NCBI GenBank assembly: GCA_905612295.1
Contig: CAJQRN010000007.1
Span: 1-64,000 of the forward strand
Reading direction: 5' to 3'
Source of the DNA: an uncultured Candidatus Nitrosopumilus sp.
GTDB lineage: Archaea > Thermoproteota > Nitrososphaeria > Nitrososphaerales > Nitrosopumilaceae
DNA: 64,000 bases
Below, piece by piece: positions 2,030 to 42,121 of the stretch; within the stretch, counting starts at the first letter, position 1; each line of letters begins with the position of its first letter. The position numbers and the translations under genes are program-made. Under the pieces are notes generated by a model that worked only from the letters and a program-made list of their open reading frames with translations, ran no database searches and had not been told where the DNA came from.

Positions 2030-3142
2030 AACACGAATAGGATTATAGAAGTTATCTCTTTCTTCAACTTTATATCCAATTTGATGAATAGCATCAATGA
2101 TAATTTTATCAGTTAATTCAGTTGAACGTGCACCAGTACAGGAAACCACTTCTTCACCAATCAAAGTTCCACCAAAATCATCAGCACCATATTGCAAGGC
2201 AAGTTGTGCCATACCCACACCATTAGTTAGCCATGATGATTGAATGTGAGGAATTAATCCATTTAGAACAAGTCTAGATATTGCAATCATTTTCAAAAGC
2301 TGAATTCCACCGGTTCCATATTCAACAATACCTTCTTCTTGCATCAAAGTATTATTTGGTTCAAAGTTCCATGGAATAAAAGCCATAAAGCCATTAGTCT
2401 TTTCTTGTAATTTTACAATTTTAGAAAAGTGTTCAACAATATCGTTATTATTTTCAACACTGCCATACATCATTGTTGCAGATCCAGGAATTCCCAAAGA
2501 ATGTGCCTCATCCATAATCCTAATCCAATCAGAACTAGAAATTTTCTTGGGGCTAATAATTTCTTTAACAGAATCAGTTAAAATTTCAGCACCTGCACCA
2601 GGGATAGATTGTAAACCAGCATCTTTTAATCTAGATAAAACCTCTTTGGTAGATGATTTTTCAACTCTTGCAATCATATCAATCTCAGATGTAGATAATC
2701 CATGTACACCAATAGTTGGAAATTTTTTGCGCATCATTTTGAATGCATCCTCATAATATTCAATTTTTAAATTTGGATTATGTCCACCTTGAATCAAAAC
2801 TTGGCTAATCTTAAACATGTCATATGATGTTTTAATACGCGTTTCAATTTCATCAAGAGATAAAGTGTAAGAGTCTTCAGCTCCAGGGGATCTATAAAAT
2901 GCACAAAATTTGCAATCAGTGATACAGACATTAGTATAATTCAAAATTATATTATTTACAAAAGATGCTTTATTACCAAATTGTTTTTTTGTTAAATAAC
3001 CAGATACTAATCCCATTAAATGAACATCATTAGATTCTAAAAGTCTCAAAATATCTTCAGATCCAGGCCTGTTACCCTTAAGAGAATTTTCTAAAATATC
3101 TTTAATATCACTTTTTTGTATCTGTTCAGTAGTTTGACTCAA
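2024..3142 (-). CDS. mqnC: radical SAM protein, MqnC-like (cyclic dehypoxanthinyl futalosine synthase / CofH superfamily)
   Basis: NYTNVCITDCKFCAFYRSPG CxxxCxxC motif and QGGHNP; 372 aa. Confidence 0.75.
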   Translation of the reverse strand: MSQTTEQIQKSDIKDILENSLKGNRPGSEDILRLLESNDVHLMGLVSGYLTKKQFGNKASFVNNIILNYTNVCITDCKFCAFYRSPGAEDSYTLSLDEIETRIKTSYDMFKISQVLIQGGHNPNLKIEYYEDAFKMMRKKFPTIGVHGLSTSEIDMIARVEKSSTKEVLSRLKDAGLQSIPGAGAEILTDSVKEIISPKKISSSDWIRIMDEAHSLGIPGSATMMYGSVENNNDIVEHFSKIVKLQEKTNGFMAFIPWNFEPNNTLMQEEGIVEYGTGGIQLLKMIAISRLVLNGLIPHIQSSWLTNGVGMAQLALQYGADDFGGTLIGEEVVSCTGARSTELTDKIIIDAIHQIGYKVEERDNFYNPIRVL

Positions 3143-3288
3143 TTAGTATTAATCCCATAAAATTTCTATTTAATTCTTGATAGAAAGTGTAGATTTAAAA
3201 TAAATGATGAATTTATGCTTAATTTTAAATAATTCTAAGTGCACAGATACACGTTATTTTTAAGTAGGGCTCAGAATAAAAACAAAAC

Positions 3289-4071
3289 ATGGTATCAGCA
3301 AATGAAATTAGATTAAATCGAATTATGAGGAAAGGAAAAATGTTATGCATTCCAATGGATCATGGAATTTCAGAAGGGCCAATGGAGGGTATTGAAGATC
3401 CAGCTTCTACAATTTACAAATGTGAAGGGCATGGACTTACAAGTGTAATTATTAACAAAGGAATTCTTAAAGCATTACCAAAGCCACCAAAAATAGGAGT
3501 TTTAGTTCATTTTTCAAGTAGTACATCATTATCATTATCACCTAATCGTAAAATGTTAACAGGTACAGTCAAAGAAGCACTTGCATTAGGAGCTGACGGA
3601 GTTTCACTTCACATCAATATTGGAGGTAAAGAAGAACCAGAAATGTTAGAACAGCTTGGAATGACAGCAGATCAATGTCACAGATGGGGAATGCCACTTT
3701 TAGCAATGATGTATCCAAGAGGAGAAAATATCCCAAATCCACATGATCCAGAAATTGTAGGACATGTTGCAAGAATTGGTGCAGAATGTGGTGCAGATAT
3801 TGTTAAGACATTATACACAGGAGATATTGATTCATTTGCAAAAATTGTAAAAAGTACACCAGTACCAATTGTAATTGCAGGAGGTCCAAAAGCAAAAACA
3901 GATTTAGATATTCTTCAAATGACTGAAGACGCCATAACAGCAGGAGCAAAAGGAGTAACATATGGTAGAAACATATTTGCACATAAAGCACCTGAAAAAA
4001 TGGTTGAGGCATTAGCTGAGATAATTTTCAAAAAAGGAACCGCAAAGGAAGCGATGAAAAGAATTGAATAA
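3289..4071 (+). CDS. 2-amino-3,7-dideoxy-D-threo-hept-6-ulosonate synthase (class I aldolase fold)
   Basis: [12 protein letters not shown]..., [11 protein letters not shown]; first gene of the aro cluster. Confidence 0.88.
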
Positions 4072-23470: not shown

Positions 23471-24796
23471 TTATCCTAATCCCATTTTTCTAAGAGTACC
23501 TTGCATTTGACGACCTTTTGAGGCCTTCATTAAATTCTTAGAATTTTTATAATTTTTGACTAATTCTTTAACTTCACTCTCAGGCCATCCAGAACCACGT
23601 GCAATTCGTTTAATTCTAGATGAATTAAGTAAATCAGGATCTGCCTTTTCATCTTTATTCATGCTTTGAATTATGTATCTCCATTTTGAAACTCTACCTT
23701 CCATTTGATCGACTTGATCTTCTTTAACCATACCAGACATTCCAGGCATACTATCAAGAAGTCCTTTCAAAGAACCAACTTTGGTAACCTCCTCCAACTG
23801 ATAAAAGAAATCATCCATGTTCATTTTTCCACTTGAAATTCGTTTCATTCTAACATCATCACCTTCATTCTCCAATCTTTTTGCTAAATCCAATACAGCT
23901 TGAATATCGCCCATTCCAAGTAATCTACCAACAAACCTAGTTGGAGAAAATTTTTCTAAATCATCAATTCTTTCACCAGTACCAATGTACATTATTTGTG
24001 CACCAGTTGCAGCAGATGCTGCAAGTGCACCCCCACCCTTTGCAGAACTATCTAGTTTTGAAACTATTATACCGCCAACTGGAATAATTTTATGAAATGC
24101 TTCAGCTTGAGCGAAACATTGTTGTCCAATAGTACCATCAATTACAAGTAAACACAAATCAGGTTCTGCAACTTTGTTTATCCTCCCCATTTCTTCAAGT
24201 AAGTCATGTTCTTCTTTATGACGACCAGCAGTGTCAATTATAATTACATCAAGAGATTGACTTTCAAAATGTTTTAAACCGTTTTTTACAATATTTGGAG
24301 AGTCCTTATTATTTTCTTCACCGTAAACTTCAACACCAGATTTTTCACACATCATTTTTAGTTGGATTAAAGCACCAGGTCTATAAGTGTCAGCACCTAC
24401 AACGCCAACTTTCTGTCCTTGGCCAGTCAAAAATTTAGCAAGTTTTGAGGCCACAGTGGTTTTACCACTTCCTTGAATTCCCAATAAAATTATTTTATTT
24501 TGTTTTCCAGGTATAAAATTAAAATCAGATTCATTACCAAGTAATTTTGAGAGTTCGTCATAGAGAATTTTTACAATGTGATCTTTACGTGATAGGCCAG
24601 GAGGAGGGGTTTCATTTAATGATCGCTCCTCTAATCGTTTTGTAATTTCAAGAACTAATCGTACATTCACATCAGAAGTTAATAGTGCTCTTTGAACATC
24701 TTTACAAAGATCTTTAATTAGTTCTTCATCAATACCAGAAGATTTAAGGATCTTTTTGATTGCATCTCCTAATCCAGTTTTTAATCCATCAAGCAT
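23471..24796 (-). CDS. srp54: signal recognition particle 54 kDa protein
   Basis: GIQGSGKTTVASKLA, VVGADTYRPGA, IIDTAGRHKEE, SKLDSSAKGGGAL. Confidence 0.97.
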   Translation of the reverse strand: MLDGLKTGLGDAIKKILKSSGIDEELIKDLCKDVQRALLTSDVNVRLVLEITKRLEERSLNETPPPGLSRKDHIVKILYDELSKLLGNESDFNFIPGKQNKIILLGIQGSGKTTVASKLAKFLTGQGQKVGVVGADTYRPGALIQLKMMCEKSGVEVYGEENNKDSPNIVKNGLKHFESQSLDVIIIDTAGRHKEEHDLLEEMGRINKVAEPDLCLLVIDGTIGQQCFAQAEAFHKIIPVGGIIVSKLDSSAKGGGALAASAATGAQIMYIGTGERIDDLEKFSPTRFVGRLLGMGDIQAVLDLAKRLENEGDDVRMKRISSGKMNMDDFFYQLEEVTKVGSLKGLLDSMPGMSGMVKEDQVDQMEGRVSKWRYIIQSMNKDEKADPDLLNSSRIKRIARGSGWPESEVKELVKNYKNSKNLMKASKGRQMQGTLRKMGLG

Positions 24797-25478
24797 TGTA
24801 ATTTAATTCCGCATCCACTATTTCAAACCTTCCTCGATATCCATCCCAATTTTTTAGAAATTTATTAATTTTAATTGGATTAGAAAATAGAGGGCAATTA
24901 ATTACAAAAGTTTCAGCTTCACCACCTTCAAAATTTAAATTAAATCCAAATTTTGAAGATAGATTATGTAAAATTTCAATATCAGATTTTAAAATTAATT
25001 TTCCTAGCCATTTTTCATCTAAACCATCAGAAGATACAGTTATCATCATAAAATTAAAACCAGAGTCAAGTAAATCATCCATGTATTTTACAGGTTCAAG
25101 TTCCCATAATGGGGCCACTGGAATTAAATTTAATTTTAAACATAAAGTTTCAAATTGTTCTTTTTGGAATTTACTTTTAATTCCACCATGAAGTAATCCA
25201 TCAATTTGAAATTGGGCTTTTGCCTGTAGGAGTAAATTCTCAATTGTAATTAATTCATCACTAGTGTCATCAGAACTAGAGATAGCAGTTAATTGTGGAA
25301 TATCCATAGATTCAGATTGTAATTTAGTCCATTCTAAATTGGGATGATGTAAAAGATGACTTTCATCGGATTTTGGAAAGATACTCAATAAACATACAAC
25401 GTCATGGCCTTGTTTTTTAGCAACATGAATAGCATATGTGCTATCTTTTCCACCAGAAAAAAGACAAGCTAATTTCAT
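24789..25478 (-). CDS. diphthine--ammonia ligase (Dph6-like)
   Basis: LACLFSGGKDSTYAIHVAKKQGHDV; LHGGIKSKFQKEQFE; FNLNFEGGEAETFV. Confidence 0.85.
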   Translation of the reverse strand: MKLACLFSGGKDSTYAIHVAKKQGHDVVCLLSIFPKSDESHLLHHPNLEWTKLQSESMDIPQLTAISSSDDTSDELITIENLLLQAKAQFQIDGLLHGGIKSKFQKEQFETLCLKLNLIPVAPLWELEPVKYMDDLLDSGFNFMMITVSSDGLDEKWLGKLILKSDIEILHNLSSKFGFNLNFEGGEAETFVINCPLFSNPIKINKFLKNWDGYRGRFEIVDAELNYNA

Positions 25479-25526
25479 AATCTAATAAAAAAACAGCTTA
25501 ATAAAATTCTAAAATGTATTGAAAGA

Positions 25527-25589
25527 GATGCTTCAATACTCATAATCGTCATCACAAATCAGACGGCTTTTCCAACAATCATCAGCATC
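25527..25589 (-). ncRNA. candidate C/D box sRNA; D guide predicted to target C34 of elongator tRNA-Met
   Basis: Minus strand 5'-GATGC TGATGA TTGTTGGAAAAGCCGT CTGA TTT GTGATGA CGATTATGAGTA TTGA A GCATC: C, D', C' and D-like boxes in order, 12-nt C'-D guide, GATGC/GCATC terminal stem. Confidence 0.7.
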
Positions 25590-25692
25590 CACAATATTTG
25601 TAAATATCAGTGATTTTAGTGCTATGATTAAAATAAAAATATAATTATTTTTGTAATTAAATAAATAAAAATATTTTTGTAAAATTATTAGC

Positions 25693-26106
25693 CTAACTAT
25701 TTTTGATAGACATAATTTTGGTATGTTCCATTACAACCCAATAATCAACATTTTGTCCATTTTCTAATTTTCCTTTAACTTCATCATCAATCATGGCAAC
25801 ATCTATGGTTTCAAATGTTTCAGCATCCATAACTTGTACTGTGTCACCGTTAATTGAAATAATTTGTCCAACTTTCTTGTTAATCATTGGAATGTGAATT
25901 TGCATACTCACAGGGCCAACATGTGGTCGATTTTTTCCATCAAAGATACCTTGACCAACTATTCGGGCTTTTGCTGCACCGTGTTTTCCAGGTTTTGATG
26001 TATCGTATTCAATAATTCTACATGCCTCACCGCTAGGTTGATCAGTGTGTGGAAGTAGAATGTATGATCCAATTTTTAATGAACCTAAATCAGAGGGTTT
26101 ACTCAT
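25693..26106 (-). CDS. eif5A: translation initiation factor aIF5A
   Basis: YDTSKPGKHGAAKARIVGQGIFDGKNR carries the hypusination-type GKHG loop. Confidence 0.93.
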   Translation of the reverse strand: MSKPSDLGSLKIGSYILLPHTDQPSGEACRIIEYDTSKPGKHGAAKARIVGQGIFDGKNRPHVGPVSMQIHIPMINKKVGQIISINGDTVQVMDAETFETIDVAMIDDEVKGKLENGQNVDYWVVMEHTKIMSIKNS

Positions 26107-26139: not shown

Positions 26140-26751
26140 CTACTTTAGATTATCAAGGATCGAAAGGCTCAAAAAACTAGTTAATGTAAACCCTCTTCGA
26201 TTAATATCACGCTGAGTTTGATCACAATATTTTTTTACACTTTGATGACTTTTTTCACTTGCAACTTCAAGTGTCACCATATTTCCAGAATATGGAAATG
26301 TGAATTTTGAAGGAATAGAGCAAGTAGTAGATACATCTCCAAATCCTGCAATTTCAATTTTTTCTTTTTTTAGTAATGAACCAGCAATTTCGCATAAATC
26401 ATCATTATCGTCCGCATATTCAAGATAGTATATAGAAATAAAGTTAGTTTTTTCCTCAACTTCCCTTTCAAAAAGATAATCTCGAATATTAAAAATAAAA
26501 GAAGTTTGTTCTTGAACATGTTTAGATAATTCTTTTTCTACAATTGAATTATTTTTGAATTTGGCTAGGAGGTAATGATTAGCAGAAGTTGAAAAGTAGG
26601 GTTTACTGTCACTTGAAAATGTACCTGTAACAAAATATAATTTTTCAATATTTTTTGAACTAACCCAGGAGTCCTTTAATTCAAGAGAATCTTGATTGTG
26701 TAAATATGGGGCACACGCATAGCCAGAATAAGATAATGTTTCAGTAGACAC
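26140..26751 (-). CDS. hypothetical protein
   Basis: 203 aa ORF, no recognised family. Confidence 0.65.
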   Translation of the reverse strand: MSTETLSYSGYACAPYLHNQDSLELKDSWVSSKNIEKLYFVTGTFSSDSKPYFSTSANHYLLAKFKNNSIVEKELSKHVQEQTSFIFNIRDYLFEREVEEKTNFISIYYLEYADDNDDLCEIAGSLLKKEKIEIAGFGDVSTTCSIPSKFTFPYSGNMVTLEVASEKSHQSVKKYCDQTQRDINRRGFTLTSFLSLSILDNLK

Positions 26752-26849: not shown

Positions 26850-26976
26850 CCCGTGGTAGCTCAGCCTGGTAGAGCTCCTGGCTGTAGATGTTGGCTTTAG
26901 ATGGCTAAACGAAACACAGCCCATCAGGCATACAGAAACCGGGTTGTCGGTGGTTCAATTCCGCCCCGCGGGACCA
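26850..26976 (+). tRNA. tRNA-Tyr(GUA) with 50-nt intron (26888..26937) at position 37/38; CCA encoded
   Basis: Acceptor CCCGTGG/CCGCGGG with A73-CCA, D stem GCTC/GAGC, anticodon stem CCTGG/CCGGG, T arm GGTGG-TTCAATT-CCGCC; C1-G72 as in archaeal tRNA-Tyr. Confidence 0.93.
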
Positions 26977-42020: not shown

Positions 42021-42121
42021 TGCAGAGGGTGGGATTCGAACCCACGAACTCCTAAGAGAAGGGATTTCCTATATTAGAGATCTTGAGTCCCTCTCGGTTG
42101 ACCAGGCTTCGATACCTCTGC
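42021..42121 (-). tRNA. tRNA-Leu(CAA) with short (16-nt) intron at 37/38; no encoded CCA
   Basis: GCAGAGG/CCTCTGC acceptor, T arm GTGGG-TTCGAAT-CCCAC, anticodon stem AGGGA/TCCCT bracketing CTCAAG-[ATCTCTAATATAGGAA]-A, variable arm TCTCTTAGGAGTTC. Confidence 0.9.

Follow-up and report, generated by a model that had tools for sequence, protein, structure and literature searches.

In the stretch of 64,000 nucleotides from an uncultured Candidatus Nitrosopumilus sp. analysed here (the window), an unannotated box C/D sRNA was found on the minus strand at 25526-25590. It is very probably a double-guide archaeal sRNA whose guides would direct 2′-O-methylation of C34 in elongator tRNA-Met and of the equivalent of E. 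coli C2510 in 23S rRNA. The original prediction, made from the letters of the window, had proposed a C/D guide for tRNA-Met C34; it is supported and was right in substance, in both its complementarity to the tRNA and its conservation. The predicted 23S rRNA target is new; that of the second guide had been left unexamined. Contig C7, which carries the window, comes from a 73% complete assembly of about 0.9 Mb.

Architecture of the sRNA locus

Read along the minus strand from 25590 to 25526, the sequence is GGATGC-TGATGA-TTGTTGGAAAAGCCGT-CTGA-TTT-GTGATGA-CGATTATGAGTA-TTGA-A-GCATCT, which is a textbook archaeal C/D box layout (Table 1). The spacer between boxes C and D′ is 16 nt and that between boxes C′ and D is exactly 12 nt; the order of the boxes, the enclosing stem and the 12-nt spacing are all present as first described. 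The mismatch that had been feared in the stem is not there. The five base pairs of GATGC/GCATC are perfect on the minus strand, a sixth G-U pair between 25590 and 25526 is optional, and there is only an unpaired A at 25532.

A scan for the four boxes together with a stem of at least 5 bp gave one match in the 64-kb window, and the same scan gave none in 60 Markov-resampled windows (mean 0.0, maximum 0). In an Rfam comparison, no family scored above its gathering threshold for the sRNA.

Table 1. Features of the sRNA locus and its surroundings, in the order of the minus strand
Feature	Position in the window	Strand	Basis
aIF5A (translation factor), upstream neighbour	25693..26106	-	Pfam PF21485 and PF01287; synteny
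TATA-like element ACTAAAAT (CTAAAAT)	25613..25620	-	Starts 30 nt before the stem; putative promoter
Box C/D sRNA gene, stem to stem	25526..25590	-	Architecture and conservation
Terminal stem, 5′ side, GGATGC	25585..25590	-	Pairs with 25526-25531; covariation in relatives
Box C, TGATGA	25579..25584	-	TGATGA in 120/146 relatives
Segment TTGTTGGAAAAGCCGT between box C and box D′	25578-25563	-	Read from the sequence
D′ guide GGAAAAGCCGU	25563..25573	-	Pairing of bases 2-11, counted from box D′, with helix 90 of 23S rRNA
Box D′, CTGA	25559..25562	-	Read from the sequence; relatives
Box C′, GTGATGA	25549..25555	-	TTT separates box D′ from box C′
D guide CGATTATGAGTA / CGAUUAUGAGUA	25537..25548	-	Pairing of bases 2-11, counted from box D, with positions 31-40 of elongator tRNA-Met
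Box D, TTGA	25533..25536	-	TTGA or ATGA in 122/146 relatives
Terminal stem, 3′ side, GCATCT	25526..25531	-	Sequence and covariation in relatives
Dph6-like diphthamide synthase, downstream neighbour	24789..25478	-	Pfam PF01902; synteny

Distribution and covariation

Within the genus, a DNA search found the locus in 20 of 24 other genomes, and it gave weak hits in three further families; a near-identical copy occurs in a Nitrosopumilus sp. record (L128). A pattern made from the D′ guide and the boxes matched 167 of 401 genomes of the class. Since this pattern fixes the D′ guide, box D′ and box C′, the independent evidence from its matches is limited to the stem, box C, box D, the D guide and the genomic context. 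Named records with a match include Nitrosopumilus, Nitrosarchaeum, Nitrosotenuis, Nitrosopelagicus, Cenarchaeum, Nitrosocaldus and Nitrososphaeraceae, as well as one Bathyarchaeota and one Njordarchaeota. Other genomes of the class, most members of family f8 among them, gave no match to the pattern. Eight pattern loci, every one from a bacterial record, had no other part of the architecture and were discarded as chance hits.

Boxes, guide and stem are kept in the relatives, and the stem covaries. Its cells are paired in 95% of cases compared with 78% after shuffling, with 31 double-change cells compared with 8. All five pairs show changes on both sides among the relatives, none of the slid controls came near the observed covariation, and 39 distinct hand-cut stems agree with it. 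Box D of the sRNA is UUGA and not CUGA, which had been named as a weak point. Among 146 relatives, box D is TTGA in 66, ATGA in 56 and CTGA in 17; thus, the odd box D of the window is a habit of the family.

The D guide and elongator tRNA-Met

The gene for elongator tRNA-Met contains an intron and lies on a separate contig from the sRNA (G000:C42:34521-34635). The D guide pairs with ACUCAUAAUC, that is, with tRNA-Met positions 31-40, over 10 of 10 exon bases, and C34 stands at N+5, in agreement with the proposed target nucleotide. The full 12-nt target of the original prediction did not hold, as the twelfth pair is absent. The tRNA gene has UACUCAUAAUCU, so that guide positions 1-11 can pair with the unspliced precursor, in which the last U of the intron gives the eleventh pair, and positions 2-11 with the mature tRNA; position 12 is mismatched. 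In a genome search, the 12-nt complement UACUCAUAAUCG was found solely opposite the guide itself. Elongator tRNA-Met is the only 10/10 match among the tRNAs of the same genome that were examined. Ile-GAU and Lys-CUU reach 9 pairs with a mismatch within the anticodon, and a second CAU tRNA, which I take to be tRNA-Ile2 from its acceptor sequence, reaches 8.

The intron of tRNA-Met is read as lying between positions 30 and 31. This reading comes from a bulge-helix-bulge motif (GAG-TGCC-AG/T ... GGCA-AT/A-CTC, with slashes at the exon-intron borders as read) and from the exon ends, which stay constant in distant relatives as the intron varies. The motif is absent from the minimum-energy structure of the pre-tRNA-Met. 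Given an intron at 30/31, the mature anticodon arm is CCAGA-CUCAUAA-UCUGG and the D-guide duplex would need no intron sequence. The core of the D guide, GATTATGAGT, is conserved across 133 loci and guide positions 1 and 12 are variable, which is the pattern predicted by exon-only pairing. The optional extra pair with the last intron base is seen in the genus itself. Before splicing, guide pairing would have to compete with the bulge-helix-bulge element, since C32-C34 would be part of it in the precursor as read.

In one locus (L110, Marine Group I strain D17), the D guide is two bases shorter, AGATTGAGAG compared with the usual AGATTATGAGAG. The deletion would break the anticodon pairing, and it looks like either decay of this copy or a mistake in the sequencing.

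Two intron-containing tRNA genes, Tyr-GUA at 26850-26973 (plus strand) and Leu-CAA at 42021-42121 (minus strand), lie in the window itself; they were found by Rfam and missed by an intron-free ARAGORN search. A contig of another archaeal bin has about 17 tRNA genes in close succession, and several of them encode their CCA ends (G039:C266:5000-8600, L298). This contig looks bacterial or phage-derived and misbinned.

The D′ guide and 23S rRNA

The D′ guide GGAAAAGCCGU, next to CUGA, forms 10 Watson-Crick pairs with 23S rRNA at UCGGCUUUUCC (L087:5277), the strand of helix 90 directly after the peptidyl transferase loop. As an exact 11-mer, the target occurs nowhere in the genome except in the sRNA itself; the 10-mer in 23S rRNA emerged once the first base was allowed to be unpaired. 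The chance that a random 10-mer has a perfect rRNA match is about 0.004 per guide. The base at N+5 is presumably the equivalent of E. coli C2510, by the numbering that the conserved GAUGUC motif gives.

The guide and the rRNA agree across the families. In family f1, the D′ guide has GGAAAAG and the 23S rRNA has CGGCUUUUCC; in other families, these are GGAAGAG and CGGCUCUUCC. Counted over the 86 genomes in which both guide and rRNA were listed, the variable guide base agrees with the rRNA in all 86 (76 A/U and 10 G/C). On a tree, guide and rRNA probably changed together once, at the root of f1, so that the agreement would count as one compensatory event, not 86. Many relatives have an A at position 2 of the D′ guide (GCCAT), by which one pair is lost and nine pairs, covering N+5, remain. 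Across the families, the D′ guide is conserved as well as the D guide, and it is retained where the D guide changes.

Helices 90-93 of 23S rRNA are a hotspot of archaeal C/D methylation (PMC4644070), and C2510 is not named in the text of that paper. A review states that in sRNAs for tRNA methylation the second guide has no target (PMC7994747). The present sRNA, with a tRNA guide and a predicted rRNA guide together, would be an exception to this statement.

A below-threshold match was seen between window positions 25529-25591 and the Rfam family RF01604, plasmodium_snoR28 (21.9 bits, threshold 63). It has nearly the same D′ guide, GGAAGUGCCGUC-CGA, and it may possibly share the helix 90 target in 23S/28S rRNA.

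Possible exchange of the second guide

In families f2, f4, f10, f12 and f16, the D′ guide is kept and the D guide is different; several of these exchanged loci adjoin aIF5A or Dph6. A tentative reading, which I regard as possible and rather doubtful, is that one old locus, often beside aIF5A, has kept its guide for the peptidyl transferase centre unchanged, with a second guide exchanged between lineages. The second guide would aim at tRNA-Met C34 in Nitrosopumilaceae-type genomes, as well as in family f22 (L218) and a Bathyarchaeota record (L118); in the sister families it would have other targets, perhaps tRNA wobble bases. By eye, the D guides of L053, L054 and L109 appear to aim at C34 of Leu-CAA, Gln-CUG and Ser-CGA.

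Comparison of the exchanged D guides of f12, f16 and f4 with the tRNAs of genomes G035, G039, G027 and G228 gave no good match, in tRNA sets in which intron-bearing genes are under-detected. The tRNA-Ser(CGA) of G027, read by hand, matches over only 6 bases. The guides of f2, f3, f12 and f16 had no clear match in the 23S fragments or in the rRNA operon of the window's genome. The pattern CTCWRRWTC for tRNA anticodon arms was dropped as too unspecific. If the exchange is true, it would mean modular retargeting of a single RNA that couples the maturation of the ribosome and of decoding tRNAs.

Gene neighbourhood and putative promoter

The sRNA locus lies between the aIF5A gene and the Dph6-like gene; the genes for SRP54 and Pus10 come after the latter, and the whole series is on the minus strand. 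The order aIF5A-sRNA-Dph6 in one orientation recurs in 104 of 163 loci, and most of the others keep either aIF5A or Dph6. In many relatives, the stem begins a few bases past the stop codon of aIF5A. Upstream of aIF5A, at 26140-26751 (minus strand), there is an ORF of 203 amino acids without a Pfam match.

Of 105 distinct upstream regions, 83 have the TATA-like element ACTAAAAT, with at most one mismatch, starting precisely 30 nt ahead of the stem; 18 further matches lie no more than 3 nt away from this position. Beside aIF5A, it lies within the last codons of the gene (K-T-K-I-M). In the 47 upstream regions without a recognised aIF5A tail, it is still present and the surrounding sequence is variable. 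The tRNA genes of the same genome have similar AT-rich elements near -30. I infer that ACTAAAAT would be the TATA box of the sRNA, nested in or inherited from the aIF5A gene.

The segment at 25591-25620 of the window (minus strand) resembles a decayed duplicate of the 3′ end of aIF5A in which mainly ACTAAAAT survives. The same fossil tail was seen in other genomes without an adjacent aIF5A.

Alternative explanations and proposed function

Does the second guide have a target at all? An sRNA in which the D guide alone acts, and in which D′ pairs with 23S rRNA by coincidence or as a non-methylating chaperone contact, would suit the review statement on targetless second guides (PMC7994747), and the A in GCCAT does break one pair in many relatives. 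However, these relatives retain nine pairs over N+5, the D′ guide shows no less conservation than the D guide and stays when the latter changes, and its variable base agrees with the rRNA in all 86 genomes compared. A single active guide is thus unlikely. Far less probable is a kink-turn element in the 3′ region of aIF5A or the 5′ region of Dph6 that regulates the mRNAs through L7Ae and is no guide RNA. The conserved position between two translation genes, directly past the aIF5A stop codon in many relatives, would be expected of it, but the guide regions are as strongly conserved as the boxes and fit two RNAs, and loci without a recognised upstream aIF5A tail retain both the RNA and the -30 element. 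Even the AT-rich intergenic DNA of the window leaves next to no room for a chance assembly of box-like words. The thermodynamic fold of the lone strand is no better than that of shuffled sequences (z -0.71, uninformative), which would fit chance, but the architecture is absent from the 60 controls and is conserved in 167 of 401 genomes with stem covariation; chance is already refuted by these controls, the conservation and the covariation.

The preferred reading, a double-guide sRNA, predicts expression, assembly and methylation as follows. The sRNA would be transcribed from its own TATA-like promoter and/or within the aIF5A transcript. The terminal stem with the C/D and C′/D′ boxes would form kink-turn-like elements, and the RNA would bind L7Ae, Nop5 and fibrillarin and direct 2′-O-methylation at two places. 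On the anticodon arm of elongator tRNA-Met, the D guide would put the wobble base C34 at +5; on helix 90 of 23S rRNA, in the peptidyl transferase centre, the D′ guide would put the C2510 equivalent at +5. Cm34 would keep tRNA-Met on AUG and off AUA. The genes for Nop5 and fibrillarin are present and overlap (L217:1378-2778 and 2528-3439, contig C42), and the pair lies about 9 kb from the gene of the target tRNA-Met.

With this locus, the ammonia-oxidising archaea and their relatives gain a defined C/D sRNA of very wide distribution; literature searches on this lineage found no C/D sRNA paper. It also provides a testable case in which one RNA would link the catalytic centre of the ribosome with the wobble base of the tRNA that reads AUG and not AUA.

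Comparison with known guide RNAs

Guiding of C34 of elongator tRNA-Met is already known from Pyrococcus sR49 and Haloferax sR-tMet. In a passage of PMC4033218 that cites Joardar et al. (2011), sR-tMet of Haloferax volcanii is given as a trans-acting C/D sRNA for Cm34 of elongator tRNA-Met, and the present sRNA would be like it in both respects. Guides of the haloarchaeal type are described as pairing partially with the intron, with methylation before splicing (PMC2584109). Compared by description, the present sRNA differs from them: with the intron read at 30/31, its conserved core pairs exclusively with exon bases. Intron pairing as described for those guides is no part of the conserved duplex here, and it may be peculiar to the published examples, not something that every Cm34 guide needs.

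Pyrococcus sR49 is a predicted Cm34 guide for tRNA-Met (PMC2584109). Likened by description, it and the present sRNA share the target nucleotide and are non-intronic C/D sRNAs. I know of no D′ guide common to the two. Another Pyrococcus sRNA, sR41 (Rfam RF01126), has weak local similarity (18.5 bits, gathering score 54), and the present sRNA is not a member of that family. The consensus D guide of sR41 ends in CCCUAUGAG, which is read as the same kind of C34 guide; its D′ guide differs, and sR41 has been related to 23S G1950 instead (PMC2584109). The archaeal double-guide rRNA sRNAs (PMC4644070, PMC7994747) resemble the present one in having two guides that follow the N+5 rule. They pair with two rRNA sites, whereas the present sRNA pairs with one rRNA site and one tRNA site. 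What is distinctive here is the predicted union of a Cm34 guide and a peptidyl transferase centre guide in one RNA, the putative exon-only pairing, and the location of the locus beside aIF5A.
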